Assembly: GCA_946480785.1 (NCBI GenBank)
Contig: CAMLLD010000049.1
Location: forward strand, 1-50,420
Length of the DNA: 50,420 nucleotides
Reading direction: 5' to 3'
DNA from: an uncultured Blastocatellia bacterium
Lineage (GTDB): Bacteria > Acidobacteriota > Blastocatellia > Pyrinomonadales > Pyrinomonadaceae
This document shows positions 22,216-50,420 of this stretch, one piece after another. Under the pieces are notes generated by a model. That model did not search any database, was not told the DNA's origin, and was given only the letters and a program-made list of their open reading frames with translations. Both the position numbers and the translations under genes were made by a program. How positions within the stretch are numbered: position 1 is the first letter of the stretch; every line of letters begins with the position of its first letter.

Positions 22216-22272
22216 GGAAGAGTTAACCACGGAAACGCAGAGGCACAGAGAAGCAGCCCACCGGGTCCAATC

Positions 22273-24360
22273 ATGAAAGCCCTCATCATCGACAACTACG
22301 ATTCGTTTACGTTCAATCTCTATCAGCTGGTCGGAGAGATCACGGGTACCGAGCCCCTCGTTGTCAAGAATGACGGCATGGCGTGGGAAGACCTGCTCCT
22401 GCTGGATTTCGACTCCGTGATCATCTCGCCGGGACCTGGCCATCCTGAGAAGGAGCGTGACTTCGGCCTCTCGCGCAGGGTAATTCAGGAACTGCGTGTG
22501 CCGATACTCGGTGTCTGCCTGGGCCATCAGGGAATCGATCATCTCTTCGGCGGAACTGTGCAACATGCTCCCGAGCCTATGCATGGACGACTCAGTTACG
22601 TCTATCACAACGAGTCGGATCTATTTGCCGGCGTGAGTAATCCTTTTCGGGCGGTGCGTTATCACTCGCTCGCGTGCGCTGATCCACTCCCCTCATGCCT
22701 GGCAAAGACTGCCTGGACCGAAGATGGCATCATCATGGGTTTGGCGCATCGAACTCTGCCGATTTGGGGAGTTCAGTTTCACCCCGAATCGATCTCCACA
22801 GAATACGGTCGAACGCTCCTCAACAACTTCGCGCGACTGTCAGCGCGGAGTGGATCGACCAACGGCCGCAAACGCAGCGCGGCAGTCACGGCAAACGCGA
22901 CGGTCCAGCACGCGGCGGAACGCGAAGCCAACGCCGGTGAATACAAGCTCTTTGTTCGAAGCCTCTCGCTGGTCGTAGATGTACCTGATCTGTTTACGCG
23001 CTTGTTCGCCGGCGAGGAGACGGCTTTCTGGCTCGATAGCAGCCTGTGCTCGGAAGGACTCGCGCGGTTTTCAATCTGCGGCGGTGCTTCAGCCGCGCAA
23101 GGCGAAACGGTCCGCTACTACGCTCATGAAGGCGAATTGGAAGTACGAAAAGGAGGGACAGCTTCCGTCTCACACGAAGACGTCTTTTCCTACCTGAAGC
23201 GCGAAATTGCCCGGCGCGCTGTCGAACCTTCGCTTGACTTACCGTTCGGCTTCAACTGCGGCTACGTCGGTTACTTCGGCTATGAGTTGAAGGCTGCCCT
23301 CGGGTGTAAGACCAAACACCGTTCGAATCATCCCGACTGCGCCCTGCTTGCTGTCGATCGCTGTGTGGTTGTCGATCACCAGGAGAATGACGTTTACCTG
23401 CTGTATCTGGGACACGCAGCAGACGAAGACAACGCCGCGAGTTGGTTTGACAGCATAACCCCACAACTTCACGCACGATCTTCTGCATTGCCGCCGCTAT
23501 CTACCAGCGAGCCGGTTAATTTTGCAGAGTGCCAGTCGCAGGAGCGTTATCTCGAGAATATCGGCGCCTGCTTGCAGCACCTGAAAGATGGCGAGTCGTA
23601 CGAAATTTGTTTGACCAATCGGATCAAGGCCGCAACCCGCGTGAATCCGTTCGAATACTACAAGGTGTTACGCGTTGTGAATCCGGCGCCGTATTCAGCC
23701 TACCTGAAGTTTCCGGAAGTAGAAGTCGCTTGTTCATCAATGGAACGATTTCTCAAGATTAGTTCCACCGGCATAGTAGAAACGAAACCAATCAAAGGGA
23801 CGGTCCGCCGCGGCACGAACGCCGCAGAAGACGAACGGCTCCGCGACTGGCTGGCGCATGACACGAAAAGCCATTCGGAAAATTTGATGATCGTCGATCT
23901 CCTGCGCAACGACTTGGGCAGAGTATGCCGCCTCGGCTCTGTCTCCGTGCCGAAACTCATGAGCGTGGAAAGCTACGCTACTGTCCACCAGTTGGTGAGC
24001 ACAGTTACCGGACATCTGCGCGGCGACCAAACTGCCGTGGACTGTTTGCAAGCGGCTTTTCCCGGCGGCTCGATGACCGGCGCTCCAAAAGTACGGACCA
24101 TGGAGATCATCGATGAACTGGAAGACGAAGCGCGCGGCATCTACTCCGGATCCATTGGCTACCTGGCTTTGAACGGCTCCGCCGATCTGAACATCGTCAT
24201 CAGAACGGCAGTCTTCGCGGGCGAGTCGGTCTGCATCGGCGTGGGCGGAGCGATCGTCGCGTTGTCAGAACCCATTGCGGAATGGGAAGAGATTGTCTTG
24301 AAGGCGAAGGCGTTACGCCACGCATTCGAACAGTTCTCACCCGCGGTTGTCGGGCGGTAG
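22273..24360 (+). CDS. papA: 4-amino-4-deoxychorismate synthase, PabA-PabB fusion (PapA-like)
   Basis: A 695-residue fusion. Residues 1 to about 190 are a class I glutamine amidotransferase (GPGHP, GVCLGHQ with Cys82, FHPESI). Residues from about 230 to the end are a chorismate-utilising component I domain (NPAPYSAYLKF, SSMERF, IVDLLRNDLGR, FPGGSMTGAPKVRTMEII, YSGSIGYL). The decisive motif is PIKGT with Lys508: the lysine is typical of aminodeoxychorismate synthases, whereas anthranilate synthases carry PIAGT. The product should be 4-amino-4-deoxychorismate. With the adjacent mutase-type gene and the downstream prephenate-dehydrogenase-type gene this matches the PapA-PapB-PapC route to 4-aminophenylalanine known from pristinamycin and chloramphenicol producers. 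A housekeeping folate PabAB is the main alternative. Confidence 0.9.
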   Translation: MKALIIDNYDSFTFNLYQLVGEITGTEPLVVKNDGMAWEDLLLLDFDSVIISPGPGHPEKERDFGLSRRVIQELRVPILGVCLGHQGIDHLFGGTVQHAPEPMHGRLSYVYHNESDLFAGVSNPFRAVRYHSLACADPLPSCLAKTAWTEDGIIMGLAHRTLPIWGVQFHPESISTEYGRTLLNNFARLSARSGSTNGRKRSAAVTANATVQHAAEREANAGEYKLFVRSLSLVVDVPDLFTRLFAGEETAFWLDSSLCSEGLARFSICGGASAAQGETVRYYAHEGELEVRKGGTASVSHEDVFSYLKREIARRAVEPSLDLPFGFNCGYVGYFGYELKAALGCKTKHRSNHPDCALLAVDRCVVVDHQENDVYLLYLGHAADEDNAASWFDSITPQLHARSSALPPLSTSEPVNFAECQSQERYLENIGACLQHLKDGESYEICLTNRIKAATRVNPFEYYKVLRVVNPAPYSAYLKFPEVEVACSSMERFLKISSTGIVETKPIKGTVRRGTNAAEDERLRDWLAHDTKSHSENLMIVDLLRNDLGRVCRLGSVSVPKLMSVESYATVHQLVSTVTGHLRGDQTAVDCLQAAFPGGSMTGAPKVRTMEIIDELEDEARGIYSGSIGYLALNGSADLNIVIRTAVFAGESVCIGVGGAIVALSEPIAEWEEIVLKAKALRHAFEQFSPAVVGR

Positions 24361-32157: not shown

Positions 32158-33021
32158 ATGACGCTTTCCGCTGCGATCGTTCTGGGAGGGTTGGGCCAGG
32201 CCGGCGATCTTATCGGTCGCGCCCTCACAGCGACGGGAACGAAAGTGCTGTTTGTCGACGTGCTGCCAGGTTCTGCAGCAATCGGGGAGGGAAGTTATCT
32301 TCAAGCAGACATCACGCGGCCTGATCGTGCGTTGTTGCGAGCGATTGCTGCAACCGACTGTGTTGCGATGTGTGTTCCGGAGCGCGCCGCTATCGACGCG
32401 GCGCCGGCAATTCTCGATGCCATGTCGAGCGGAGCGTTGTGGGTTGATACTTTATCCGTGAAGCAGAAGATATGTGGGCTGCTGCGGAGTTACGAACAGA
32501 AGCTGGAGTTGATCTCTATAAATCCGATGTTTGCGCCGGCGCTCGGATTTGCGGGTCACTCGGTTGCCCTCGTCGAAGTTTCCAGTGGTCCTAAAAGCCA
32601 GGAGTTCACGCGGAGACTCAGCTCACTGGGCGCAATGATCGAGACGGTCACGGCGGAGCAACACGACGAGTTAACGGCAGCTATTCAGGTGGCGACACAC
32701 GCAGCGATCCTGGCGTTCGGAATGGTCTTGCTGGACCTTGGTTATGACGTCGAAAAAGGGCAGGCGCTGGCCACGCCGCCGCACGAGATGCTGGTCTCGT
32801 TGTTGCATCGTTTGAGCACTGCCAATCCGGAAGTTTACTGGGACATCCAACATAATCATCCGCATGCGGCGGCGGTGCGCGACAGCTTGAGTGGCGCCGT
32901 GAGAGCACTTGATGCCGCAGCCCGCGACGAGTCACCGCGCGAATTTCAGGAACTCTTCGAGCGCATAAGAGAGTCGGTGTTAAAGGGCTTTGCCCGAACT
33001 GATTGCGCTCCCTCCCGATAA
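32158..33021 (+). CDS. papC: Prephenate dehydrogenase family protein (PapC-like)
   Basis: A 287-residue protein with an N-terminal NAD(P)-binding motif (VLGGLGQAG, residues 8-16) and the helical C-terminal domain of the TyrA family (SINPMFAPALGFAG, VTAEQHDELTAAIQVATHA, NPEVYWDIQHNHP). The HDE/Q..THA and NP..YWDIQ blocks are characteristic of prephenate dehydrogenases. In this cluster it is the natural PapC candidate: oxidative decarboxylation of 4-amino-4-deoxyprephenate to 4-aminophenylpyruvate. A role in ordinary tyrosine synthesis is the alternative. It is tightly packed behind the dehydrogenase gene and 39 bases before the ABC exporter. Confidence 0.85.
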   Translation: MTLSAAIVLGGLGQAGDLIGRALTATGTKVLFVDVLPGSAAIGEGSYLQADITRPDRALLRAIAATDCVAMCVPERAAIDAAPAILDAMSSGALWVDTLSVKQKICGLLRSYEQKLELISINPMFAPALGFAGHSVALVEVSSGPKSQEFTRRLSSLGAMIETVTAEQHDELTAAIQVATHAAILAFGMVLLDLGYDVEKGQALATPPHEMLVSLLHRLSTANPEVYWDIQHNHPHAAAVRDSLSGAVRALDAAARDESPREFQELFERIRESVLKGFARTDCAPSR

Positions 33022-34778: not shown

Positions 34779-35225
34779 ATGAAGCAATTATTGATCATTG
34801 CGGCTTTGGTTACGGTTAGCTGTTTCTCTGCCGGGGCGCAGACGGCGCCGAAGCCGGGCGCTGACGACGGCGCCACTCGAGAAGCCTTGATAAAGCTGGC
34901 CAAGGAGTGGGTTGACGCAGAGGGACGGCGCGATGGTGCCGCGCTCGATCGTTTACTCGCCGACGATTTCGTAGGCACCGCTCCGTCCGGAACGAGAGTA
35001 ACGAAAAAGATGGTGGTACCGGATCCAAAAGGACCAGGCGGCGGTCTCTCTTTTACGGGCGACGACTATGTGGCGCGAGTTTTCGGTGACATGGCGGTCG
35101 TGTTCGGCAACGGCTCCTGGAAGGCGAAAGATCAGGGCACCCTCTGCTTCACGTTGGCGTTCGTTAAGCGCGGAGACCGCTGGCAGATGGTTGCCGCCCA
35201 CGTGTCACAGGTGCCGTCGCTCTAG
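34779..35225 (+). CDS. Exported DUF4440/SnoaL-like protein
   Basis: A 148-residue protein with a clear signal peptide (MKQLLIIAALVTVSCFSAGAQ, cleavage probably after AGA). The mature part has the nuclear-transport-factor-2/DUF4440 pattern: a helical WVDAEGRRD segment, LLADDFVGTAPSGT, DMAVVFGNGSW and a final KRGDRWQMVAAHVS strand. Such small cone-shaped proteins bind small ligands, and some are enzymes, but function cannot be read from sequence. A strong AGGAGG at 34765-34770 sets the start. It begins the run of three exported proteins after the ABC exporter and may act on or bind the product in the periplasm. Confidence 0.8.
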   Translation: MKQLLIIAALVTVSCFSAGAQTAPKPGADDGATREALIKLAKEWVDAEGRRDGAALDRLLADDFVGTAPSGTRVTKKMVVPDPKGPGGGLSFTGDDYVARVFGDMAVVFGNGSWKAKDQGTLCFTLAFVKRGDRWQMVAAHVSQVPSL

Positions 35226-35256
35226 ACGCGCAACACATTTTAATAGAGGTGCAAAA

Positions 35257-36444
35257 ATGAAACGGCTCGCATTAGTGTTTCTCATAACAGTCGTCTTCCT
35301 TTCCGGGGTGCCAATCAATACTGCAGCAGGTAACGGCGCCGATCTGCATGGAGCTATAAAGGTCGTGGATGATTTGGTGGCCGCCGAGTTTGCCAAAAAT
35401 AGCTTCGGTAGCATCACCGTGGGTGTAGTCGATGGCCCGAACCTCGTCTGGACCAAAAGCTACGGTTACGCCGACATGGAGAAAAAGGAATTAGCAACCA
35501 AGGACACGGTCTATCGCATTGGCGGAATGACCATCAAGTTTACGGCCATCATGTTGTTGCAACTGGTCCAGGACGGAAAAATCGGGATCTCCGATCCCAT
35601 CGACAAATACTTTCCCGAGATAAACCTCGTCCAGGGACGCGATGCCACGCCCCTCACATTTTTACAACTGGCGACGCATACTTCAGGACTTCCCAGCGAA
35701 CCCGATGATGCTGCCACCTACAGCCGTGGGCCAGTGGCCAGTTGGGAAAAGACATTGATCGCCGCTCTTCCGCACACCAAATTTACCTACAAGCCGGGCG
35801 AGAGATTTCTTTACTCGAATCTTGGTTACGCAATCCTGGGAGCGGCGCTGAGTCGTGTAGCCGGTGAGCCGTACACAAGTTATGTCGAAAAGAAAATCTT
35901 CGCGCCTTTGGGGATGAAGCACACGTCATTTGAGCCAAATGCCGCTACCAGGCCGTGGCTCGCTAAAGGCTATGTCGTGACGGGAGACAAGGTGGACGGA
36001 ACGGTTCCTGAACTCGAGCATCAGGGTCGCGGCTACAAAGTTCCCAACGGCGCAGTCTACAGCACGATCGGGGACATGGCTCGTTTACTTTCGTTCGAGT
36101 TAGGACAAGCGCCCGAGAGTGTGCTGAAAAAGCAGTTGGTGGAGGAGAATTACAAGCGCATCACAAAGCTGAATCGACCGAGTGAAGACATGATCGGCTA
36201 TGGACTTGGTTTCCAGGTGAGGTACTGCGGAGAGACGACAGTCTGGGGACACGGCGGGTTCGTGGCGGGTTACATCGCAAGGTCCGACTTTCTTCCGTCT
36301 GCCGGTCTCGGAATCGTAACGCTTCGTAGTGCTGAGGGCGGATCGATACACGTATCGACGCGCAAGTTGGCGTGTGAGTCGCTCATGCAACTGGTTGCGA
36401 GCCGTTCAAACGTTGATCCTCCGAAAAGCGGATCACACGAATAA
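35257..36444 (+). CDS. Beta-lactamase-like serine hydrolase family protein lacking the SxxK motif
   Basis: A 395-residue exported protein (signal peptide LALVFLITVVFLSGVPINTAA) of the class C beta-lactamase/DD-peptidase family. The family's YxN motif is present (YSN at 186-188), as is HGG (332-334), and length is typical. The nucleophile motif is broken: where the family has S-x-T-K after RIG, this protein reads G90-M-T-I93. Both the nucleophilic Ser and the general-base Lys are therefore missing, and the codons are clear (GGA ATG ACC ATC). Lys94 is shifted by one. It is probably a non-catalytic homologue, perhaps a binding or sequestering protein, or uses different chemistry. The start is the ATG at 35257 with AGAGGT upstream; a longer frame overlaps the previous gene and is not credible. 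Confidence 0.8.
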   Translation: MKRLALVFLITVVFLSGVPINTAAGNGADLHGAIKVVDDLVAAEFAKNSFGSITVGVVDGPNLVWTKSYGYADMEKKELATKDTVYRIGGMTIKFTAIMLLQLVQDGKIGISDPIDKYFPEINLVQGRDATPLTFLQLATHTSGLPSEPDDAATYSRGPVASWEKTLIAALPHTKFTYKPGERFLYSNLGYAILGAALSRVAGEPYTSYVEKKIFAPLGMKHTSFEPNAATRPWLAKGYVVTGDKVDGTVPELEHQGRGYKVPNGAVYSTIGDMARLLSFELGQAPESVLKKQLVEENYKRITKLNRPSEDMIGYGLGFQVRYCGETTVWGHGGFVAGYIARSDFLPSAGLGIVTLRSAEGGSIHVSTRKLACESLMQLVASRSNVDPPKSGSHE

Positions 36445-37948: not shown

Positions 37949-39313
37949 ATGGAAAGAATAATTATTTCCGGCGCCGGGCTGGTCGGATCGTTGCTTTCCG
38001 TCTACCTGTCAAGAAAAGGTTATCGGGTGGACGTCTACGATCGAAATCCTGATCCACGAGAAGCAAGTAACGAGAACAGAACCGGAAAGGCTTTCAACCT
38101 GACCCTCTGCGACCGCGGCTTCAAAGCGCTCGATGAGGTTGGAGTCGGTGATCACATTCGTAGTCTTTCGGTTCCGGCCTACGGGAGGTTTGTTCATAAC
38201 GAACAAGGTGAATTGGCTTATCAGCCTTACGGCAATAACTCCGAGGCCCTCTACTCTATTTTGCGATCGGACATGAGTGCGGCCATGGTCGACTTTGCCG
38301 CGCGGCAGCCGAACGTGCAGTTTCATTTTCATGAAAAGTGTGTGGGGCTCGCGTTAGCGCCGCTCGAGGTCGAATTCAAAAACACAAAGACCGGAGCACA
38401 GAGACGTGAGAAGGCTTACCTTCTTTTTGGGGCTGACGGCGCCTTTTCCGGAGTGCGGACCTATTTGCAAAGATTTCACCGGGTTAGTTACGCGCAGGAG
38501 TTCCTGGACCAGGGATACAAAGAACTGACTGTGCCGGCAACAGCTACCGCGGATTGGGTGGCGGAAAAGAACGTGTTGCACATGTGGCCGCGCGGTCGCT
38601 ACATGCTGCTTGGGTTTCCGAATCCGGACGGAAGTTTCACCTGTTCTTTGCACATGCCCTTTGATGGTCCTGAGTCTTTCGCGTCAGTGGAAACAGAGAG
38701 CGAAGTGATCGCTTTCTTCCAGGAGAAATTCCCCGACGTCATCGATCACATTCCGAACCTCGTTGAAGAGTTCAATAGCAGTCCGCCGCACCCGATGGTG
38801 ATGGTGAAATGCTCGCCCTGGACGTTGCAGGGCAAGGTCGCGCTCATCGGTGACGCCGCTCACGTCCTCTATCCTTATTACGGGCAAGGCGCAAATTCCG
38901 GCTTCGAAGATTGCTCCGTGTTGATGGAGTGTCTGGAGAAATACGGCGACGATTGGAAAACAGTATTCAGCGAGTACGAACGACTGAGGAAACCGAATAT
39001 GGACGCGATCTCAGCGCTGGTTACTGAGCATTATGTCGAGATTCGCGACTTGTTAGGTGATCCAAAGTTTTTGCTGAGAAAAGCGCTCGAACGCAAGATC
39101 AATCAGATGTTCCCCGATCGCTACCTGCCTTTGTACTCGATGATCGCGTTCACTTGTATTCCCTACGTCGAAGCCTTGCGCATCGACCGCGAGCAACGCT
39201 CAATGATCGACTACCTCATGAACACGCCCGAGATTCAAGCGAATTTGGACAGCAAAGAAGTTGAGAATTTGATCACGCAACTCGTCAACCCGGTGGGTGT
39301 CGGGGCTGATTAG
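37949..39313 (+). CDS. Kynurenine 3-monooxygenase-like flavoprotein hydroxylase
   Basis: A 454-residue class A FAD monooxygenase that aligns along its whole length with kynurenine 3-monooxygenase. It has an N-terminal dinucleotide motif GAGLVG (8-13), then FNLTLCDRGFKALDEVG, QPYGNNSEALYSI, FGADGAFSGVR, DQGYKELTVPA, LHMWPRGRYML, PNPDGSFTC, and the FAD-ribityl motif GDAAH (301-305) followed by YYGQGANSGFEDC. The C-terminal block (DRYLPLYSMIAFTCIPY) is also KMO-typical. The expected reaction is NADPH-dependent ortho-hydroxylation of an arylamine such as kynurenine. In this cluster the substrate may instead be a 4-aminophenylalanine unit. No kynureninase is present, which argues that a 3-hydroxykynurenine-like amino acid would be used directly. 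Strong AAGGAGG upstream. Confidence 0.88.
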   Translation: MERIIISGAGLVGSLLSVYLSRKGYRVDVYDRNPDPREASNENRTGKAFNLTLCDRGFKALDEVGVGDHIRSLSVPAYGRFVHNEQGELAYQPYGNNSEALYSILRSDMSAAMVDFAARQPNVQFHFHEKCVGLALAPLEVEFKNTKTGAQRREKAYLLFGADGAFSGVRTYLQRFHRVSYAQEFLDQGYKELTVPATATADWVAEKNVLHMWPRGRYMLLGFPNPDGSFTCSLHMPFDGPESFASVETESEVIAFFQEKFPDVIDHIPNLVEEFNSSPPHPMVMVKCSPWTLQGKVALIGDAAHVLYPYYGQGANSGFEDCSVLMECLEKYGDDWKTVFSEYERLRKPNMDAISALVTEHYVEIRDLLGDPKFLLRKALERKINQMFPDRYLPLYSMIAFTCIPYVEALRIDREQRSMIDYLMNTPEIQANLDSKEVENLITQLVNPVGVGAD

Positions 39314-39364
39314 TTGCCGGAGAATATCGAGTACTTTTCAGTCGGTCCGCGGGAGATGTTGGCC

Positions 39365-40126
39365 ATGCTAGACCTAACTACTCAAACAACGCTCACAAGT
39401 GAGAGTCTTAACGGAAGATCCGCAAGAGACGAAGTCGTCGGGATCGTCGGTGGCATAGGACCGTTGGCTTCGGCCGAGTTTCTGAAAGCCATCTATGAAA
39501 ATAGTCTCGGTGAACAGGAGCAGGAAGCGCCCCGGGTGATCATGTATTCCGATCCAACTATTCCGGATCGCACGGAGGCCATCCTCTCCGGAGACAACAG
39601 TGAAGTGCTCGACAAGTTAGCCTCAAGCCTGCGCGCTTTGACGTTCCTCGGGGCGACGCAAGTCATTGTTTGTTGCGTGACCGCGCACAACCTGTTGCAA
39701 AACTTACCCCCGGACTTGAAGGTGAAGCTAGTCTCGCTGGTGGACGTTATTTTCGAAAAGATTATCCAGTCACCTGAAAAGCGCCTGCTCATTTGCTCGA
39801 AAGGCACGCGAAAAACTCGTCTGTTTGAGGACCACGAGCTTTGGCCGGCGGCGCGGGAGTATATCGTTCTTCCCGATGAGCGCGATCAGGAGCTGATTCA
39901 TTACGAGTTGATTTGTAAGCTCAAAAAGAGTCGTAACGTCTACGAATTCGTACCGACTCTCAAGAGTCTTTTCGCAAAGTACCGGGTCGACTCCTTCATC
40001 TCCGGGTGCACGGAAATGCACGTAGTAGCGAGGCGACTCGTCTTCACAAACGGTAACGGAAATAAGCACGGCAACATTGATCCTTTATCGATCATTGCTG
40101 AAAGAATCGCCGCCGGGACTGTGTGA
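39365..40126 (+). CDS. Aspartate/glutamate racemase family protein
   Basis: About 253 residues of the cofactor-independent Asp/Glu racemase family. GIVGGIGPLASAEF lies near the N-terminus, the first catalytic cysteine is in CVTAH (Cys104) and the second in SGCTEMH (Cys215). The usual N of CNTxH is replaced by V. The frame extends upstream to a TTG at 39314, adjoining the KMO-like stop. I prefer the ATG at 39365, with GGGAG about nine bases upstream, because conserved family sequence starts shortly after. Since no epimerisation domain is seen in any NRPS, this racemase may make a D-amino acid for one of the A domains (inference). Substrate is not predictable from sequence. Confidence 0.8.
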   Translation: MLDLTTQTTLTSESLNGRSARDEVVGIVGGIGPLASAEFLKAIYENSLGEQEQEAPRVIMYSDPTIPDRTEAILSGDNSEVLDKLASSLRALTFLGATQVIVCCVTAHNLLQNLPPDLKVKLVSLVDVIFEKIIQSPEKRLLICSKGTRKTRLFEDHELWPAAREYIVLPDERDQELIHYELICKLKKSRNVYEFVPTLKSLFAKYRVDSFISGCTEMHVVARRLVFTNGNGNKHGNIDPLSIIAERIAAGTV

Positions 40127-40129
40127 GTT

Positions 40130-41686
40130 ATGAAATACCGAGTTCTCAAATTGCTGGCTCTTATTCTGTTCGTAACAGTCGGTTTTCTTGTGTTGCTGCA
40201 TCCAGGGAGAGCACAGACTCAGGAGAAGGATGTCGATAAGACTCCCAAACAGGATGTCATCGAGATCCCTAAAACCTGGGACGAGGAGGAGCTGCGCTCA
40301 ATGGAACTGCCGCTGGCGAGTAAGGAGTACACACCGACTTACGTCGCGGCCGATTTTTATTATCGAATGTCTGAATTGCGCATCTACAAAAGCTATCCTG
40401 TGTACGCCCCGGGAAAAGAGCCGCCAGGCTATATGGAATGGCTCGCGCAGCAGGAGCCTCAGATAGCTTTCGATCCTGAAAAACTCAAAACTACGGAGGA
40501 CTGGATCAAAGCCGGTGAACTAGTCTTCAATGCCCCAGTCTTCTACAACGCACTTAACCAGATCTCCGATTTGCGAGATCCGGCGTGGTACGAGCGGACC
40601 AAAATGCCGGTGTCCGCAGATGGCATTATGCCGTTCAATGTTTACGTCGTACGGCAGAAGGGAACAGTTGAGAATGGCGAATTCTCCTGCGCCACTTGTC
40701 ATACCCGCGTGCTGCGTGACGGCACAGTGGTTAGAGGAGCACAGGGGAATTATCCACTTGGCCGGTTGGACGAGCTGGATGTCAGAAAGCACGTGGGTGC
40801 GCCCGATGAGGCACAGTACAAAAACCGCGCTCGTGGTGCGTACATCCTTGGCTATTACGCACCCTGGGTGAAGCCTGACGAACTCGAAGTATTTGACAAG
40901 TTAACTCTCAACCAATTCGCCGATCTCATGGGTGCGCTCATTCCTGGGGTGCAGGCTCGCCCGGGTGTGAGTCTCTGGTATCCCGTTGTGGTTCCGGATT
41001 TGATTGGCGTCAAAGACAGGCGCTATCTCGATCGCACCGGCCTGCAACTGCACCGGTCGATAGGCGATATGATGCGCTACGCATCTCTCAATCAGGGCGC
41101 AAACTTTCTCTCGAACTACAAAGGATTCATTCCGCGTGGACCATTAATCAGCCCGAAGAGCCTGCGACCTCGTTTCAGCGACGCGGCACTCTACGCGCTA
41201 AGTCTCTATCTGTATTCGCTGAAACCGCCACCGAATCCGAATAAGTTCGACGCATTGGCTGCGGAAGGTCAAAAGATTTTCGAGCGCGAGGGCTGTGCCG
41301 GCTGTCATACTCCGCCGCTTTACACCAACAACCGTTTGACTCCCGTCGACGGTTTTGATGTCCCCGAGGACCATTGGAAAAAATATGATGTGATGAGAAA
41401 GCGGGTGGGTACCGCACCAGGCCTGGCGCTGAATAGCAGGCGCGCCACCGGCTATTACAAAGTTCCGTCACTCAAAGGCGTATGGTATCGCGGACCCTTC
41501 GAGCACAGCGGTTCAGTTGCGACGCTGGAAGACTGGTTTGATCCTCACCGGCTCGACGACAACTACGTGCCTACCGGATTTCGCGGCTACGAAAACAAAC
41601 CCCACGCCGTTCGCGGACACCCGTTCGGACTCGACCTTTCGGAATCAGAACGCAAAGCACTGATCGCATTTCTTAGAACGCTCTAA
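40130..41686 (+). CDS. Exported diheme cytochrome c
   Basis: A 518-residue protein with an N-terminal signal sequence or anchor (LLALILFVTVGFLVLL) and two heme motifs, CATCH at residue 187 and CAGCH at residue 389. The stretch FSDAALYALSLYLYSLKPPPNPN between them, and the GCAGCHTPPLYTNNRLTPVDGF and RRATGYYKVPSLKGVWYRGPFEHSG blocks, are typical of the large periplasmic diheme cytochromes related to the di-heme peroxidase/MauG group. The exact subfamily is unclear. It starts 3 bases after the racemase stop and so seems to be part of the same operon. It could supply or accept electrons for an oxidative tailoring step, or be incidental. Confidence 0.8.
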   Translation: MKYRVLKLLALILFVTVGFLVLLHPGRAQTQEKDVDKTPKQDVIEIPKTWDEEELRSMELPLASKEYTPTYVAADFYYRMSELRIYKSYPVYAPGKEPPGYMEWLAQQEPQIAFDPEKLKTTEDWIKAGELVFNAPVFYNALNQISDLRDPAWYERTKMPVSADGIMPFNVYVVRQKGTVENGEFSCATCHTRVLRDGTVVRGAQGNYPLGRLDELDVRKHVGAPDEAQYKNRARGAYILGYYAPWVKPDELEVFDKLTLNQFADLMGALIPGVQARPGVSLWYPVVVPDLIGVKDRRYLDRTGLQLHRSIGDMMRYASLNQGANFLSNYKGFIPRGPLISPKSLRPRFSDAALYALSLYLYSLKPPPNPNKFDALAAEGQKIFEREGCAGCHTPPLYTNNRLTPVDGFDVPEDHWKKYDVMRKRVGTAPGLALNSRRATGYYKVPSLKGVWYRGPFEHSGSVATLEDWFDPHRLDDNYVPTGFRGYENKPHAVRGHPFGLDLSESERKALIAFLRTL

Positions 41687-41743
41687 AACCTCGCCATCCC
41701 CCAACACCCTTCATTGACTTCGGTTGAAGCCTCGGGAGGTTCA

Positions 41744-44700
41744 ATGTCACTCACTATCGACAGCCATCCTGATCAACTGGTTGACAACCTTCCTAATCGC
41801 TCCACGCTGGTCTCGTTACTTCGTTGGCGGGCGGAGCACCAGGCCGACCAATTGGCCCACACGTTTCTCGCTGAGGGAAACGTGATCGAAGCCACTCTGA
41901 CTTACGCGGAAGTGGATCGAAACGCGCGCCGGATTGCCGCCAAACTACAATCGATCGACGCCGAGGGAGAGCGTGTGCTCCTGCTTTACCCGCCCGGCTT
42001 GGAATTCATTTCGGCGTTCTTTGGCTGTCTATACGCGGGTGCGGTGGCGGTTCCGGTTTACCCGCCGCGGCGTAATCGCAATCTGCTTCGACTACTCGCA
42101 ATCATCGCAGATTCTGAATCCTCAATCGTGATGACCACGGGCGCCACGCTGGCGAAAGTGCAGCCCTGGTTTGCCGAGACAGCGCAACTGAAAAACGTTC
42201 GCCTGCTTGCTTCCGATAGTCTCGCTGAGCAATCGGAGTACGAGTGGCACGAATCCGTTATCGACAAAAACTCTTTGGCTTTTCTGCAATACACCTCCGG
42301 CTCGACGGGCAGGCCAAAGGGGGTCATGCTCACTCACGAGAATCTACTGTTCAACGCCGCGCTCGTTTATGCGGCGGTGGACCATGCGCCCGGTGACAAA
42401 TATGTATCGTGGTTGCCGACCTTCCACGACATGGGATTCATGGCGGGAATCCTTCAGCCTCTCTACGGCGGATTCCAAAGCATTCTCATGTCACCGGCTT
42501 CCTTTTTGCAGCGGCCACTGTCCTGGCTCGAAGCGATCACACAGTACCGCGCGACGACCAGCGGCGCGCCAAACTTTGCGTATGAACTGTGTGTGCGCAA
42601 GGTCAACGCTGAACAGAAAGCGACGCTGGATCTCAGTAGTTGGACTGTGGCTTTCAACGGCGCCGAGCCGATTCGATTGGAGACGCTGGAACGATTCGCG
42701 GCAGCGTTTGCATCGTGTGGTTTTCGTCGCGAGGCTTTCTATCCCTGTTATGGCCTGGCTGAAGCCACGTTGATGGTCTCCGGTTCATTAAAAACCAGCG
42801 CTCCCGTGAGCAAGCGAGTAAATGCGAAAGCCCTGCTGGACCATCGCGTGGTTGAGTCGGCGGTTGCCGGCGGTGAGAACGATCCTTTGCTGGTTGGCTG
42901 CGGCAGAAATTTGGGCTCGCAAAAGATCGTCATTGTGCGCCCCGAAACCAGTGTCGAATGTGCCCCCGGCGAAGTAGGTGAAATCTGGGTTACGGGGACG
43001 AGCATCGCTCAGGGTTACTGGCGGCAACCGGAACTCACGGAAGCGACCTTCCGCGCGCGTCTTGCCGGTACTAATGAAGGACCATTCCTGCGTACCGGTG
43101 ACCTGGGCTTTATCGATGCGGGCGAACTCTTTGTCACCGGCCGGCTGAAAGACCTGGTCATTATTCGCGGCTTCAATCATTACCCGCAGGACATAGAACT
43201 GACTGTCGAGAAATGTCATCGCGCCCTGCGGCCCGGTTGTGGCGCGGCCTTCTCGGTTGAAGTTGCTGGTGAAGAACGTTTGGTGGTGGTCTATGAAGTC
43301 GATCAGCGGCAGGAAGTGGACCTGAGTGATCTACGCGAACGCATCATCAGGGCGATCGCGGAAGAACATGAACTCCAGACTTATGCGGTGGCGTTCATTC
43401 GTCAGGGAAGCGTTCCGAAAACTTCCAGTGGAAAGATTCAGCGGCATGCTTGTCGAAAGGGTTTTCTGGACCACAGCCTCGACGTGATTGCGGACTGGCA
43501 ACTCGATCTGACGACAGATGAATTGCCGGCCGAGCGCTCGCTTCAGGAGATCGGCGACGTCGAGACCTGGCTCAAACAGCAAATTGCCGGCGCGCTCAAG
43601 GTATCGGTCTCCCAATTGGAGCTTGAAAAACCACTCGCACAATACGGCCTCGACTCACTCGCCGCTTTAGAGTTGATCTACAGCACCGAGGTCGCCACTG
43701 GCGTCAGCCTTTCGCTGGCGAGTTTTCTACAAGACTTCAGCATCTCTGATCTCGCCGCTGAAATACGGGCCGAGTTGGATAAGTCTGCAACCAGTCGGGC
43801 TGAACTTGCTGAAGAAACTCCCGCCGCATCGCAGGCCCTTTCGCGAGGCCAGCAGGCGCTCTGGTTTCTGTATCGCCTGGCTCCCGAAAGCGCTGCTTAC
43901 AACCTCGCCGGCGCCGTTCGTCTGCTCGGCGAAGTGGACGTGACGGCGTTACAGCAAGCGTTTCAAGCTTTGCTTGATCGCCATGAGTCGCTGCGAACTA
44001 TTTACCACGAGCGGGACGGAAAACCTGTTCAAGAGGTGCTCGACTTTGCCGCAGTCTCTTTTGATGAAGAGGACGCTGCTTCGTGGAGCGACGCAGAGTT
44101 GGACCAGCGTTTGCAGTATGAAGCTCACGTCCCTTTCAACCTGGAGATGGGTCCGTTATTGAGACTCTGCCTGTTCAGACGGTCTGCGAACGAGCACGTC
44201 CTGTTACTCGTGGTCCATCACATCGCCGTTGACTTCTGGTCGCTCGGTGTTCTGATACACGAGCTTGGTCTTCTGTATCGCTCACTGACGACGGCGACAG
44301 TGGCCGCTCTCGATCAGCTTCCGCTGCGATACTCAGATTACATTCGCAGCCAGGAACAAATGTTGAGCAGCCCCGAGGGCGAGCGACTCTGGACGTACTG
44401 GCAAAAGCAACTTGCAGGCGACTTGCCCGTGATCGATCTTCCGACCGATCGACCGCGTCCGGCAGTGCAGACCTTTGAGGGGACCTCTTACGCCTTCAAA
44501 CTGGATCCATCCCTGACGCAGCAGCTCAAAGCCGTGGCGCGCGATCAGGGCGCCACACTCTACATGTTGCTGCTGGCTACGTTCCAAATACTGCTCCATC
44601 GTTACACGGGACAGGAAGACATTCTGGTCGGATCGCCGGCAGCAGCACGAGGACGAGCCGGCCTTGCGGGCTTAGTGGGTTACTTCGTTAACCCGCTGGT

Positions 44701-47700
44701 CCTGCGCGCGAATTTCTCCGGTAATCCGACGGTGAGAGAGTTTGTGAATCAAGTGCGCCAGACCGTACTTGATGCTTATCGCCATCAGGACTACCCGTTT
44801 GCCGTGTTGGTTGAGAGGCTGCAACCCGATCGAGATCCCGCACGGTCCCCGTTGTTCCAGGTGATGTTCACGTTGCATCAATCACAGCTACGAGACAAAG
44901 AAGAAGACCTGGCCCAATTTGCTTTGGGTGAAGCCGGTGCGCAAATGAATGTCGGTGGACTGCAACTCGAGTCGATGGCCCTGGAACAGCGTGTCGCACA
45001 GTTTGACTTGACGTTGATGATGGCCGAAGCAGGTGATGGGTTGGGGGCCTCGTTGCAATTCAACCGGGATCTTTTTGACTACCGCACGATCGCGTACATG
45101 GCCCGGCATTTTCAGAATTTGCTGACGGCAATTGCGGGTGCGGAAGGGCGAGAGCCGGTGTGGGAGTTGGAATGGTTGAGTGAGAGTGAGCGGGAGGAGA
45201 TCGTTTACGGGTGGAATGCGACGGAAGTTTTGGTTGCGAGCGAGCTGAGTATTGCGGCAGAGATCGGTGCGCGCGCCCGGGAGCTTGGGGGTGCGGTCGC
45301 GCTTGTCAGTGGGCGGGAAGAGGTGAGTTATGAGGAGTTGAACGCGCGGGCAAACCAGTTGGGCCATTACCTGCGGCAGTTGGGAGTGGGACCAGAGACA
45401 GTAGTAGGCGTGTGTCTGGAGCGGACGGTCGAGTTGGTGGTCGGATTGCTGGGAGTGTTGAAGGCGGGCGGCGCATATTTGCCGCTCGATCCGAGTTATC
45501 CGCGCGAGCGACTGGAATGGATGTTGACGGACGCGGGCGTGCAGGTGGTGTTAAGTGAAGAGCACTTGCGAGAGGTGCTGGGAGAGTACGGCGCCACTCC
45601 AGGAAGACGCGTTGTGTGTCTGGACGTTGAGAGTGAAGCGATCGCGAGGGAGAGTCGCGCGGATCTGAGTGGCGTAGTAAGAGACGAGAACCTTGCTTAT
45701 GTGATCTACACGTCCGGGTCGACGGGGCGGCCGAAAGGGGTGATGGTGCAGCAGGGGAATGTGAAGAACTTCTTCTGCGGGATGGACCAGAGTCTGGGTG
45801 CGAGAGCGGGAGTGCCGGATGGAAAGCGGGAGACGTGGCTGGCAGTGACGTCAGTATCGTTTGATATTTCGGTGCTGGAGTTGTTGTGGAGTTTGCGTCG
45901 TGGTAGCCGGGTGGTGCTGCAGAGTGAAGTGGTGACGAGAGAGGCAGCACGCGAGTCAGGACCCGAGTTGGCCCGGCAGGTGGAACAGGCATCGCTGCGT
46001 GAGAGCGGCAGCGCCGAGGGAGAAGAGGCTGAGACCAGGCAACTGGACTTCAGCCTCTTTTACTTCGCGGCGACAGCCGGTAGCAATGGCCACAGCAATG
46101 GCCATGGTTATGGCGCAGGTCGTGAGAGCTACCGGCTGCTGCTGGAAGGAGCGCGTTACGCGGACGAGCATGGCTACAAAGCGGTGTGGACGCCGGAGCG
46201 GCACTTTCACGAGTTTGGTGGTTTGTATCCGAACCCGGCAGTGACGAGTGCGGCGCTGGCGACGCTCACAGAACGAGTGGAGTTACGCGCCGGGAGCGTA
46301 GTGCTGCCGCTGCATAACCCGGTGCGGGTGGCAGAAGAGTGGTCAGTGATCGATAACTTGAGCGGCGGACGAGTGGGCGTGTCGTTCGCGTCTGGCTGGC
46401 ATGCGGACGACTTTGTCTTAGCGCCGGAACACTATGCGCGACGGCATCAGGTGATGGAAGAGGGAATCGATCTGGTGCGGCGGTTGTGGCGCGGCGAAGC
46501 AGCGCGTCTGCGCGGTGGCAGCGGACAGGAAGTGGAAGTGCGGATTCAGCCGCGTCCGGTGCAACGAGAGTTGCCTGTGTGGGTGACCGCGGCGGGAGCA
46601 GTAGAAACGTTTCGTCAGGCTGGACGTTTGGGTGCGGGAGTGTTGACGCACTTGTTGGGACAGAGCGTGGAAGAGTTGGGCGCGAAGGTGGCGGCATATC
46701 GCGAGGCCTGGCGGGAAGCCGGGCATGCGGGACGCGGGCAAGTGACGTTGATGCTGCACACGTTTGTCGGCGTGGACGAAACGGAAGTGAAGCGGCAGGT
46801 GCGGCAGCCGATGTTGGAGTACCTTGGGAGTTCGTTGGGCTTGATCGAGCGGATGGCGAAGAGTCTGGGAAAGGATTTGGGAGCGGGGCTCAGTGGCAGC
46901 GACTATGACGAAGTTCTTGAGTACGCGTTTGAGCGCTACTACGAGAGGAGCGGATTGCTGGGGCCGGTGGAGAAGTGCGTGCGGATGATCGGACGACTGC
47001 GGCGGCTGGGGATCGATGAAGTTGCATGTTTGATTGACTTCGGACCAGGCGTAACGGAAGTGTTTGAGAGTTTGCAGTACCTCGAAGAGGTGCGGCGCCG
47101 GGCTCGAGCTGAAGCAGTGGCGGCGCGACGGCGGCAGGAGCGAAGCATCACTATCGGAGAGCAGTTGCGACGGCACGAGGTGACGCACCTGCAATGCACA
47201 CCAACGCTGGCGGGAGCGTTGTGGCAGGAAGGGGAGACACGTGCGGGACTGAGCCGATTGCAGCAGTTGATGTGTGGCGGCGAAGCGCTGTCGGGAAGTT
47301 TGGCTGGACTACTGCGTGAGACAGTTAACGGAACAGTCCACAACATGTATGGACCAACAGAGACGACTATCTGGTCTTCTACGCATGAAGTGAATGAGAC
47401 GGATTCCTCGACGCCGATTGTGTCGCTCGGCCGTCCGATCGCTAACACGCAACTTTATTTGTTGGATGAAGCGCTGCAGCCGGCGCCGGTGGGCGTGCGG
47501 GGCGAACTTTATATCGGCGGTGACGGCGTAACGCGTGGCTACTGGCAACGCGGTGAGTTGACGGCCGAGCGGTTTGTGCCCGACCCGTTCAGTCGTCGTG
47601 GCGGGCAGCGGCTGTATCGCACGGGAGATGAGTGCCGCTATCTGGCGAACGGAGAGATTGAATACCTGGGCCGCAGTGACCAGCAGGTGAAGCTGCGGGG

Positions 47701-50420
47701 CTATCGCATCGAGTTGGGAGAGATTGAGGCGGCGCTGCGCGCGCATGAGAGTGTGACGAGTGCGGCCGTGGCGGTGCGGGGTGAGCGGCTGGTGGCGTAT
47801 GTGGTGGGCGCTACGGGCGAGACAGTGGATGGACAACTGCTGCGACGACACTTACAGCAGCGACTGCCTGAGTACATGGTACCGAGTTACTTCATGGTGC
47901 TGGCGGCGCTGCCGCAGACACCGAATGGGAAGCTGGACCGCAAAGCGCTGCCGGAGCCGGAGGCGGGCGCAGACCTGAGTCGCACAGAATACGAAGCGCC
48001 ACGCACCGCAGTGGAAGAAGTGCTGGCGGCGATCATGGCGGAAGTGCTGCAAGTGCCGCGGGTCGGTCGACAGGATGATTTCTTCGCGCTGGGTGGTCAT
48101 TCGCTGCTGGCGATGCAGGTGATCTCGCGGATCAGGGAAGCGTTTCAGGTAGAGCTGCCGGTGCGCGTGTTGTTTGAGACGCCGTCGCTCGCCGGTTTGG
48201 CTCGTTATCTCGAACAGGTACGCGGTAGTGACGAAGCGAGGAGCGAAGCGCCGCCGCTGAGACGAGTGGATCGCGGCCAGCCATTGCCGTTGTCGTTTGC
48301 GCAGCAGCGGCTGTGGTTCCTGGATCGGTTTGAAGCCGACCGGCACCTTTACAACGTGCCGGTGCGGGTGGAGTTGCGCGGCGCACTGGACCATGAGCGA
48401 CTGCAGGAGAGCCTCAACCGTGTATTGCAGCGACATGAAGTACTGCGCACCAGCTTCCGCGAAGTCGATGGTCAGCCGGTCCAACAGATCGAGGATGTGC
48501 TCACGCTGGAGTTGCCGCTGATCGATCTGAGTGGCTGGAGTGAAGGTGAGCGAGACACAGAAGCAAAGCGGATCGCAGATGCGGAACTGTACCAGCCCTT
48601 CGATCTGGCCCAGGCGCCGCTGTGGCGAGCGCGACTGCTGCGGCTAAGGGCTGACAATCACCTGTTGTTACTCACGCTGCATCACGCGGTCTGTGACGGC
48701 TGGTCGTTGGGAGTCCTGCTGAAAGAAACCGCTGCTTATTACGAACGAGGTGCAGCAGCGGAACTGCCGAACTTACCTGTGCAGTACGCCGACTATGCCG
48801 CGTGGCAACGCGAGTGGTTGCAAGGGGCGGTACTGGACCAGCAGTTGAGCTACTGGCGCGAACGCTTGCAGGGGGCGCCGGCAGCGTTGGAACTGGCCAC
48901 CGACTACCGACGACCGGCACTACATCGTTACCGTGCGGCGACATTTCGTTACCAATTCGATGCTGTGCTCAGTAGTGAGATGCAGGCGTTGAGCCGGCGC
49001 GAAGGTGTGACGCTGCTGATGCTGCTGCTCGGCAGTTTGCAGTTGTTGTTGAGTCGTTATACGTCTTCGCAGGACATCAGTGTGGGCTTGCCGGTGGCAG
49101 GCCGCAATCGGGTGGAGAGTGAAGGGTTGGTGGGACTGTTTCTAAACACGCTGGTACTGCGCACGGAGTGGCAGGGCAATCCAACGTTTCGCGAGTTGCT
49201 GGGCCGGGTGCGGGAAACAGCCCTGGGTGCTTATGCGCATCAGGAGTTGCCGTTTGAAAAGCTGGTGGAGGAGTTACAGCCGGAGCGGGACCTGAGCCGC
49301 ACGCCGTTGTTTCAGGTGATGCTGATAATGCAGAACGCGCCGTTGCAAATGCCGGCGCTGAGCGAGTTGGAAGTGGGCACGCTGGAAGTGGCGACGCGCA
49401 GCACCAACTACGATCTGACGGTGTCAGTAACAGAGTCGGAAGCGGGGTTACAGGTATTGCTCGATTACAACGCGCTGTTGTTTCGTGAAGCGCGGATGCA
49501 GCGGCTGCTGCGGCATTGGGCCGGGTTGCTGCAAAGTGTGGTGGCTGCACCGAACAGTAAGCTCAGTGATTTGCCGTGGCTGAGTGCCGCAGAACGCGAG
49601 GAGCTTCTCTATGGCTGGAACCAGACGGAGCGGGAGTACAGAAGTGACGCGAGCGTGACGCAGTTGATAGCGGCGCAGGCAGCGCAGCAGCCGCAAGTGT
49701 TGGCAGTGGTGAGTAGTGGCGAGCAACTCACTTATGAAGAGTTGAACGAACGGGCGAATCAACTGGCGCACTATCTGCGCAGTCGCGGTGTTGGACCAGA
49801 GACGACCGTGGGAGTGTGTCTGGAGCGGACGGTGATGCTGCCGGTGGCGTTGTTGGGGGTGCTGAAAGCTGGTGGTGCTTATCTGCCGCTGGATCCGAGT
49901 TATCCGCAGGAACGGCTGGAGTGGATACGCGAAGATGCCGGTGTGCAACTGGTGCTCACCGAAGAGTATCTGGAGCAGGCTGGAAAAGAGATCGCCGAAC
50001 AAAGCAAAGCAGAGCTTGCGAGTGACCTCCACGGCGAGAACCTCGCTTATCTGATCTACACCTCGGGTTCGACGGGGCGGCCGAAAGGCGTGCAGGTGAC
50101 GCATGGCAATCTCGTGAACTTCCTATTATCGATGCAGGACGAACCGGGGCTGACGGCCGCAGACACGCTGGTGGCCGTGACGACGCTCTCGTTCGATATT
50201 GCGGGGCTGGAACTGTATCTGCCGCTGATCAGCGGCGGTCGGCTGGTGCTGGCGGAGCGGGAGACGGCCACGGATGGACAGAGATTGTTGGCGCTGTTGC
50301 GCGCGAGGCGCGCGACGGTGATGCAGGCCACGCCGGCGACGTGGCGGCTGTTGCTCGATGCGTTAGCGGCAGAAGCGATAACGGCAGCAGAGCTAAAGGA
50401 ACCGCTGGAGTTGAAAGTGC
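41744..50420 (+). CDS. NRPS-3 (partial): FAAL-ACP-C-A(LLM)-T-C-A...
   Basis: Open at the window edge; 2892 codons seen without a stop. Residues 1 to about 600 are a fatty acyl-AMP ligase (VYPPRRNR, QYTSGSTGRPKG near 183, FHDMGFMAG, PKTSSGKIQR with Lys564). The ACP has YGLDSL, Ser638. A starter-type C domain carries HHIAVDFW at 825, with Phe for Gly. The first A domain (YTSGSTG near 1322, lysine near 2063) is interrupted by a monooxygenase domain, entered separately; its code DILQMGMIWK is glycine-like. T serine is 2120. The second C domain has HHAVCDG at 2313. The second A domain has YTSGSTG near 2772 and starts DILQ, again glycine-like, and runs off the end. The ATG at 41744 follows CGGGAGGT. 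This is the lipid-loading enzyme, so it should act first. Confidence 0.95.
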   Translation, partial: MSLTIDSHPDQLVDNLPNRSTLVSLLRWRAEHQADQLAHTFLAEGNVIEATLTYAEVDRNARRIAAKLQSIDAEGERVLLLYPPGLEFISAFFGCLYAGAVAVPVYPPRRNRNLLRLLAIIADSESSIVMTTGATLAKVQPWFAETAQLKNVRLLASDSLAEQSEYEWHESVIDKNSLAFLQYTSGSTGRPKGVMLTHENLLFNAALVYAAVDHAPGDKYVSWLPTFHDMGFMAGILQPLYGGFQSILMSPASFLQRPLSWLEAITQYRATTSGAPNFAYELCVRKVNAEQKATLDLSSWTVAFNGAEPIRLETLERFAAAFASCGFRREAFYPCYGLAEATLMVSGSLKTSAPVSKRVNAKALLDHRVVESAVAGGENDPLLVGCGRNLGSQKIVIVRPETSVECAPGEVGEIWVTGTSIAQGYWRQPELTEATFRARLAGTNEGPFLRTGDLGFIDAGELFVTGRLKDLVIIRGFNHYPQDIELTVEKCHRALRPGCGAAFSVEVAGEERLVVVYEVDQRQEVDLSDLRERIIRAIAEEHELQTYAVAFIRQGSVPKTSSGKIQRHACRKGFLDHSLDVIADWQLDLTTDELPAERSLQEIGDVETWLKQQIAGALKVSVSQLELEKPLAQYGLDSLAALELIYSTEVATGVSLSLASFLQDFSISDLAAEIRAELDKSATSRAELAEETPAASQALSRGQQALWFLYRLAPESAAYNLAGAVRLLGEVDVTALQQAFQALLDRHESLRTIYHERDGKPVQEVLDFAAVSFDEEDAASWSDAELDQRLQYEAHVPFNLEMGPLLRLCLFRRSANEHVLLLVVHHIAVDFWSLGVLIHELGLLYRSLTTATVAALDQLPLRYSDYIRSQEQMLSSPEGERLWTYWQKQLAGDLPVIDLPTDRPRPAVQTFEGTSYAFKLDPSLTQQLKAVARDQGATLYMLLLATFQILLHRYTGQEDILVGSPAAARGRAGLAGLVGYFVNPLVLRANFSGNPTVREFVNQVRQTVLDAYRHQDYPFAVLVERLQPDRDPARSPLFQVMFTLHQSQLRDKEEDLAQFALGEAGAQMNVGGLQLESMALEQRVAQFDLTLMMAEAGDGLGASLQFNRDLFDYRTIAYMARHFQNLLTAIAGAEGREPVWELEWLSESEREEIVYGWNATEVLVASELSIAAEIGARARELGGAVALVSGREEVSYEELNARANQLGHYLRQLGVGPETVVGVCLERTVELVVGLLGVLKAGGAYLPLDPSYPRERLEWMLTDAGVQVVLSEEHLREVLGEYGATPGRRVVCLDVESEAIARESRADLSGVVRDENLAYVIYTSGSTGRPKGVMVQQGNVKNFFCGMDQSLGARAGVPDGKRETWLAVTSVSFDISVLELLWSLRRGSRVVLQSEVVTREAARESGPELARQVEQASLRESGSAEGEEAETRQLDFSLFYFAATAGSNGHSNGHGYGAGRESYRLLLEGARYADEHGYKAVWTPERHFHEFGGLYPNPAVTSAALATLTERVELRAGSVVLPLHNPVRVAEEWSVIDNLSGGRVGVSFASGWHADDFVLAPEHYARRHQVMEEGIDLVRRLWRGEAARLRGGSGQEVEVRIQPRPVQRELPVWVTAAGAVETFRQAGRLGAGVLTHLLGQSVEELGAKVAAYREAWREAGHAGRGQVTLMLHTFVGVDETEVKRQVRQPMLEYLGSSLGLIERMAKSLGKDLGAGLSGSDYDEVLEYAFERYYERSGLLGPVEKCVRMIGRLRRLGIDEVACLIDFGPGVTEVFESLQYLEEVRRRARAEAVAARRRQERSITIGEQLRRHEVTHLQCTPTLAGALWQEGETRAGLSRLQQLMCGGEALSGSLAGLLRETVNGTVHNMYGPTETTIWSSTHEVNETDSSTPIVSLGRPIANTQLYLLDEALQPAPVGVRGELYIGGDGVTRGYWQRGELTAERFVPDPFSRRGGQRLYRTGDECRYLANGEIEYLGRSDQQVKLRGYRIELGEIEAALRAHESVTSAAVAVRGERLVAYVVGATGETVDGQLLRRHLQQRLPEYMVPSYFMVLAALPQTPNGKLDRKALPEPEAGADLSRTEYEAPRTAVEEVLAAIMAEVLQVPRVGRQDDFFALGGHSLLAMQVISRIREAFQVELPVRVLFETPSLAGLARYLEQVRGSDEARSEAPPLRRVDRGQPLPLSFAQQRLWFLDRFEADRHLYNVPVRVELRGALDHERLQESLNRVLQRHEVLRTSFREVDGQPVQQIEDVLTLELPLIDLSGWSEGERDTEAKRIADAELYQPFDLAQAPLWRARLLRLRADNHLLLLTLHHAVCDGWSLGVLLKETAAYYERGAAAELPNLPVQYADYAAWQREWLQGAVLDQQLSYWRERLQGAPAALELATDYRRPALHRYRAATFRYQFDAVLSSEMQALSRREGVTLLMLLLGSLQLLLSRYTSSQDISVGLPVAGRNRVESEGLVGLFLNTLVLRTEWQGNPTFRELLGRVRETALGAYAHQELPFEKLVEELQPERDLSRTPLFQVMLIMQNAPLQMPALSELEVGTLEVATRSTNYDLTVSVTESEAGLQVLLDYNALLFREARMQRLLRHWAGLLQSVVAAPNSKLSDLPWLSAAEREELLYGWNQTEREYRSDASVTQLIAAQAAQQPQVLAVVSSGEQLTYEELNERANQLAHYLRSRGVGPETTVGVCLERTVMLPVALLGVLKAGGAYLPLDPSYPQERLEWIREDAGVQLVLTEEYLEQAGKEIAEQSKAELASDLHGENLAYLIYTSGSTGRPKGVQVTHGNLVNFLLSMQDEPGLTAADTLVAVTTLSFDIAGLELYLPLISGGRLVLAERETATDGQRLLALLRARRATVMQATPATWRLLLDALAAEAITAAELKEPLELKV
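46043..47067 (+). other. Luciferase-like monooxygenase domain inserted in A domain
   Basis: Residues about 1434-1775 of NRPS-3 form a flavin-dependent luciferase-like monooxygenase (LLM) domain: LDFSLFYFAA, YADEHGYKAVWTPERHFHEFGG, NPAVTSAALA, LPLHNPVRVAEEWSVIDNLSGGRVGVSFASGW and LPVWVTAAG. A linker with GSNGHSNGHGYG repeats follows the first strand. The insertion lies between A4 (FDISVLE, residue 1373) and A5 (MYGPTETTIW, residue 1868). This placement is known from the A-MOx domains of MtaG/MelG in myxothiazol and melithiazol synthesis, where alpha-oxidation of glycine is the accepted role. Here the surrounding A domain also has a Gly-like code, but it sits in the lipid-accepting first module rather than the last. 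Confidence 0.9.

Follow-up and report, generated by a model that had tools for sequence, protein, structure and literature searches.

The stretch analysed here, the window, is the 50,420-nt contig CAMLLD010000049.1 of an uncultured Blastocatellia bacterium (assembly GCA_946480785.1). It ends within the gene of a nonribosomal peptide synthetase (NRPS), NRPS-3, whose first module follows a fatty acyl-AMP ligase (FAAL) and carries an oxidase inside its adenylation (A) domain. The domain order is FAAL, acyl carrier protein (ACP), condensation (C) domain, A domain interrupted by a luciferase-like monooxygenase (LLM), carrier (T) domain, C and A; the interrupted A domain has a glycine-type code. We propose that this is an oxidising lipo-initiation module, which would yield an N-acyl-alpha-hydroxyglycyl-T that is passed on intact, dehydrated or trapped, and we put the probability of this reading at roughly 0.55. 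The arrangement recurs in Acidobacteriota, Myxococcota and Bacillota, and starting with a FAAL and an LLM-interrupted A domain, A(LLM), looks like a real way to begin a lipopeptide, with its chemistry predicted. Each part is already known; what appears new, judged by the open-access literature searched, is that they are joined where a lipopeptide begins, and that this recurs.

The starter module of NRPS-3

The NRPS-3 open reading frame (2902 aa) is listed from a TTG at 41714 and is interrupted by the window end. This TTG is probably unused, and the ATG at 41744 is preferred as the start because it is in frame and has GGGAGG 4 bases ahead. The features of the gene are as follows.

41744..50419, + strand: reading frame of NRPS-3, counted from the probable ATG start, open up to the window end
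41801..43501, + strand: FAAL domain, residues 30-596 (PF00501, PF23024, PDB matches)
43556..43798, + strand: acyl carrier protein, residues 615-695 (PF23297; GLDSL motif at 43646)
43838..45136, + strand: starter condensation domain, residues 709-1141 (HHIAVDF; placed by the C tree among its FAAL-linked members)
45254..45949, + strand: interrupted A domain, N-terminal part, A1-A4 (profile and motifs; holds D, I and L of the code)
46049..47098, + strand: luciferase-like monooxygenase, A4-A5 insert (TIGR04020, PF00296, AF2 model)
47117..47938, + strand: interrupted A domain, C-terminal part, A5-A10 (profile and motifs; holds the remaining code)
47999..48217, + strand: T (peptidyl carrier protein) domain (LGGHSL; Pfam and profile)
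48287..49543, + strand: module 2 condensation domain (HHAVCDG; Pfam and profile)
49652..50380, + strand: module 2 A domain, incomplete at the window end (profile; code begins DILQ)

Pfam, our own profiles and PDB matches place FAAL, ACP and starter C in lipo-initiation order. The best PDB matches of the FAAL are 7r7g (named ‘Polyketide synthase’, 4e-183), 3kxw (5e-145) and FadD32 chains; PF23024 scores above its cut-off, and the best FAAL-named NCBIfam model, PRK05850, reaches 577.8 bits, below its cut-off of 775. The ACP is found by Pfam and missed by our T profile. Two metagenome proteins (P0144 and P0160) are 51–53% identical to NRPS-3 across 98–99% of residues 1-1800. Since family scores, motifs and this homology agree, the layout is not a chance pattern.

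The insert matches TIGR04020 with 492.8 bits (cut-off 244.45) at residues 1446-1794, covering model positions 1-341 of 341, and PF00296 with 167.3 bits. It lies between the A4 motif (FDISVLE, 45860-45880) and the A5 motif (NMYGPTE, 47342-47362), and the match to the A-domain profile (494 positions) breaks off at position 226 and picks up again at 216. In the AF2 model the A fold is intact and surrounds a well-modelled LLM fold. By score and conserved residues, the insert is a member of the TIGR04020 MupA/Atu3671 FMN-dependent LLM family: it retains 64 of the 65 columns in which at least 95% of 108 LLMs agree, the exception being an F to Y exchange at residue 1488. Profile alignment reads the code of the surrounding A domain as DILQMGMIWK, which is Gly-like. 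Downstream, the protein continues with T-C-A; the module is thus not a terminal one followed by a thioesterase (TE).

A first-pass annotation, made from the letters alone, had already described a luciferase-like monooxygenase between A4 and A5 (46043-47067), the same code, and a position behind FAAL-ACP-C that makes the first residue the natural target. The family search and the structure model that it proposed bear this out, with slightly shifted borders; the two observations that it had named as counter-evidence, loss of LLM residues and a code for a residue lacking an oxidisable alpha-CH2, are not what we find. Its premise that such a domain normally sits in terminal modules and is oddly first here does not fit the sample surveyed below.

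LLM-interrupted A domains in other genomes

Genome contigs were scanned for LLM relatives; 144 loci were confirmed, and the best 80 of these were used. Two protein searches contributed the best 120 proteins each of about 8000 scored. All survey counts therefore refer to a similarity-biased sample, heavy in Rhodobacterales. Codes were read for 93 rows, not counting the second copy of the window that served as reference: 79 intact A4-A5 domains, nine truncated domains and five with the insert at A8-A9. All 79 intact A4-A5 domains, window included, carry the Gly-like code DILQ-x-G-[MLV]-[IV]-W, the final K being replaced by T or a gap in five of them; the nine truncated domains and two of the five A8-A9 rows gave no usable code. 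This uniform code makes oxidation of glycine the likely common function of A4-A5 LLM domains, and it agrees with a report, in the text available, that monooxygenase modules all lie within Gly A domains (PMC12283262). LLMs themselves are widespread, with 1150 matching records in a plasmid search.

With later proteins and loci, the codes of some of which were read, the set grew to 88 distinct A4-A5 LLM domains. Thirty-eight stand in proteins of the form formyltransferase-A(LLM)-T and 17 directly behind FAAL(-ACP)-C; 13 follow a C domain at the frame start, 16 lie behind another module, and four begin with A and no detected formyltransferase domain (two of these meet a contig end). Downstream of T we found C in 23 cases, TE in two and no further profile match in 63. 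Fourteen look terminal in their own protein, namely 12 of the 16 behind another module and the two before a TE. The A4-A5 layout is thus not terminal by rule, contrary to the first-pass premise. SolF, a non-terminal case described in the literature, keeps its alpha-hydroxyglycine, although its insert is at A8-A9 (PMC10204066). Starters make up a good part of this layout, although their raw surplus among the 88 is mostly due to Rhodobacterales: clustering at 70% LLM identity gave 32 clusters, six FAAL-only, three formyltransferase-only, one with formyltransferase and truncated frames, 10 behind other modules, nine with C at the frame start and three others, so that starters (10/32) about equal modules behind others (10/32).

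The formyltransferase-linked starters (L016:7550-12277, L043:7631-12301 and 36 more loci) come mostly from Rhodobacterales and also from Chloroflexota (L016), Gemmatimonadota (L013) and Novosphingobium (L017). Pfam confirmed the N-terminal formyltransferase domain in both proteins tested, L043 and L016. At these two loci, the ones checked for neighbours, a polyketide synthase (PKS) gene with the order KS-AT-KR-DH-ACP-TE lies directly downstream of the starter (L016) or one gene upstream (L043).

Three variants were seen beside these types. Gly A domains of seven proteins (P0005, P0060, P0096, P0148, P0149, P0150, P0210) hold two inserts, an LLM at A4-A5 and an insert of the size of an FkbM-type methyltransferase at A8-A9, confirmed as such by Pfam in P0060 and P0148; the combination suggests alpha-methoxyglycine or a methylated amide as the product. 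A myxobacterial clade of nine LLMs (L018-L024, L026, L072; Corallococcus, Archangium, Citreicoccus and a Myxococcaceae) sits in a truncated A domain that consists of the part up to A4, the LLM and a remnant of about profile positions 319-400, followed by C without T (Pfam was run for L018 only); the full-length LLM may act there without a working A domain. In six proteins (L038, L057, L073, P0129, P0141, P0194) the LLM is not part of an A domain but stands ahead of C, behind the FAAL or the carrier proteins that go with it; there it probably serves another purpose and acts on the acyl chain.

FAAL(-ACP)-C-A(LLM)-T occurs in 10 of the best 80 loci: in Blastocatellia AA13 (L001), in Myxococcaceae and Archangiaceae (L002-L004, L006, L007, L009, L010), in Tumebacillus avium (L008) and in a record labelled Comamonas (L005), whose LLM groups inside Myxococcaceae on the tree. 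A second such protein elsewhere in AA13 (L114) and five further cases (P0045, P0061, P0144, P0160, P0214) bring the total to 17 with the window. As in NRPS-3, the ACP often escapes our T profile, which detects it in just two cases, L008 and L114. A BLAST comparison using the window ACP places it as expected in six of the seven FAAL-linked relatives compared. Of 229 proteins listed, counting the window, 116 contain a FAAL; an LLM is also present in 14 of the 116, located in module 1 in six (window included), in module 3 in five and between FAAL and C in three. A wider scan found LLMs above the TIGR04020 cut-off in nine of 396 genomes of AA13's phylum, and the regions viewed in these genomes (short flanks plus one wider region, L116) hold no further FAAL-linked case beyond AA13. 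The open-access literature searched, mostly titles and the beginnings of abstracts, describes neither a FAAL-linked nor a formyltransferase-linked A(LLM) starter.

The FAAL-linked version was apparently assembled more than once. On the LLM tree, whose bootstrap is unsettled and which omits P0144, P0160, P0148 and L114, the 13 FAAL-linked rows require four label changes, or at least two if only well-supported branches are counted: P0041 is the partner of the window, the myxobacterial rows are united in one clade, and L001 and L008 stand apart. By BLAST identity the closest LLM to that of the window is P0148 (64.4%), whose A domain also has the FkbM-type methyltransferase; the third-closest, P0041 (63.7%), is without it. 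The window starter C belongs to a supported set of 27 C domains that are all FAAL-linked, 22 without and five with an LLM. The codes downstream of the starter differ among the FAAL-linked loci, and of the 14 window genes compared as neighbours, a generic ABC transporter alone was matched, in three of 12 loci (flanks up to about 10 kb). Because of these label changes, the mixed starter-C group, the differing codes and the hardly shared neighbours, the pattern is consistent with a Gly-oxidising A domain having been placed repeatedly behind a shared FAAL-ACP-C start. A single mobile cassette moving with its neighbours is not supported, given the label changes and the transporter-only match.

Predicted chemistry and alternatives

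In the proposed sequence of events the FAAL would charge the ACP with a fatty acid, the A domain would charge T with glycine, and the starter C domain would N-acylate the T-bound glycine. The LLM, with FMNH2 supplied in trans, would then hydroxylate the alpha carbon, and the resulting N-acyl-alpha-hydroxyglycyl-T, a carbinolamide, would go to the next C domain intact or after dehydration or trapping. On chemical grounds, the N-acyl group should protect the carbinolamide from collapsing at once. The use of FMN, the alpha-hydroxylation, the order of acylation and oxidation and the survival of the carbinolamide are all predictions from domain content.

Several observations weigh against this proposal. 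The A4-A5 cases with known chemistry, MtaG and MelG, cleave the C-N bond in the published accounts available (PMC11342130, PMC10204066). The protein that carries the nearest LLM on the tree, P0041, lacks a FAAL. A flavin reductase was not noticed in the window, although none was searched for. In the C tree, the C domains that follow A(LLM)-T do not make up a clade of their own (25 rows, 14 changes), which gives no sign of the downstream C domain specialised for an oxidised residue that we had considered.

Prompt cleavage as described for MtaG and MelG, with a break between N and C alpha on T, would release a fatty primary amide and leave glyoxylyl-T, to be hydrolysed or used as the real starter. 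The A4-A5 site and the Gly substrate are shared with myxothiazol and melithiazol, for which the same partial accounts report cleavage. We nevertheless consider this outcome unlikely and favour retention or trapping of the hydroxyglycine, with the fatty-amide route kept as the alternative, because 13 of the 17 FAAL-linked cases (10 of them from one myxobacterial group) continue to C in the same protein, whereas four stop after T and none goes on to a TE there. Also, the FAAL or formyltransferase ahead would presumably be wasted if the acyl group were always lost, and the FkbM-type methyltransferase in the A domain of P0148 could cap a retained hydroxyl. Hydroxyglycine is kept in solanimycin B according to the text available (PMC10204066). 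A terminal amide was rejected as the default product, since the module opens the protein and leads on into C-A.

The LLM might instead oxidise the fatty acyl chain alpha to the thioester, as PKS-linked LLM domains do in the description available (PMC10204066). Its closest solved structure is indeed PuwE (6ket), the OX domain of a hybrid PKS/NRPS, and the six proteins with an LLM between FAAL or carrier proteins and C would suit such a target. However, the same Gly-coded fusion occurs in the 38 formyltransferase-linked proteins, in which no FAAL was detected, A4-A5 LLMs also lie in modules behind other amino acid modules (16/88), and the code is Gly in all 79 domains read, so that an acyl-chain target is quite improbable here. 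A vestigial or structural LLM, in a module that incorporates glycine unmodified, seems very unlikely. Broken relatives do exist, in the nine myxobacterial rows with the LLM in a truncated A domain and no T behind, and the monooxygenase domain is missing from SolF in two Dickeya strains, as far as the source describes them (PMC9765074); the window LLM, in contrast, keeps its near-invariant columns and its family score and models well.

A more speculative variant, which we regard as improbable, is a self-removing lipid cap: the N-acyl-alpha-hydroxyglycine would outlast assembly and later fall apart, with no peptidase involved, into a primary amide of the fatty acid and a peptide whose N-terminal glyoxylyl group is an aldehyde warhead. 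Where vioprolide and, in the text available, corramycin are proposed to lose their lipid enzymatically (PMC10099666), the loss here would be chemical, and the formyltransferase-linked starters would be the one-carbon version. In the papers drawn on, Gly-oxidising A domains are mainly chain-ending; the survey suggests a repeated chain-starting role with FAAL or formyltransferase in several phyla, and the prediction thereby covers a set of orphan clusters. If the oxidised glycine is kept, these lipopeptide families would start with an N-acyl carbinolamide, reactive and easily missed; if it is cleaved, fatty amides and glyoxylyl peptides would be accessible by a route encoded in the synthetase itself.

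Neighbouring genes and known systems

Directly upstream of NRPS-3 (37949-41686) lie an FAD monooxygenase gene (nearest NCBIfam model VioC, below cut-off), an Asp/Glu racemase family gene and, by a weak match, a cytochrome c or di-heme peroxidase-like gene. The FAD monooxygenase has relatives of 82–89% in metagenome sequences, and the nearest one from a named organism (68%) belongs to Blastocatellia, which makes an acidobacterial source probable. The cluster also holds a class IV aminotransferase, a PabA/PabB-like fusion and a prephenate dehydrogenase-like gene (21349-24360 and 32158-33021), which look like a pathway for a p-aminophenyl-type building block. NRPS-1 opens with a truncated A domain (2383-3654; profile 3-405 of 494, no T) right before C and ends in a thioesterase. 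An S12 beta-lactamase-fold protein (35068-36444) matches ClbP chains (4e-21) and is closer to other S12 proteins. The usual S12 motif is S-x-x-K; it was not seen by eye in this sequence, and the protein may be a non-canonical S12 enzyme. A role as prodrug peptidase was dropped on both counts.

Among known systems, MtaG and MelG of myxothiazol and melithiazol share with NRPS-3 a Gly A domain that has a monooxygenase inserted at A4-A5, in the accounts available (PMC10204066, PMC11342130). Compared by published description, they are chain-ending, with TE and C-N cleavage, whereas the NRPS-3 module is first, stands behind FAAL-ACP-C and leads into C-A. Corallorazine was set aside as a precedent: the source, as available, describes its own A2 with an N-methyltransferase only and reports the monooxygenase in 38 corallorazine-related Serratia and Pseudomonas pathways (PMC11342130). 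Module 4 of SolF (solanimycin) likewise has an oxidase within a non-terminal Gly A domain, and its alpha-hydroxyglycine is extended further, as far as described (PMC10204066); its insert, however, is at A8-A9, and its chain is polyketide-fed and lacks a FAAL starter. Corramycin and vioprolide have FAAL starters, described as a FAAL-ACP-C start of a myxobacterial NRPS, but their second module provides an FkbH/HAD-type glycerate unit, and the available part of the text mentions no LLM (PMC10099666).

The formyltransferase-A(Gly,LLM)-T starters (38/88) are initiation modules with an A4-A5 LLM and a Gly code like that of NRPS-3; their product is presumably N-formyl instead of N-fatty-acyl. The FAAL(-ACP)-C-A(Gly,LLM)-T starters of AA13 (two), Myxococcaceae/Archangiaceae, Tumebacillus avium and the metagenome proteins P0144 and P0160 have the module layout of NRPS-3 itself and differ from it in their downstream codes.
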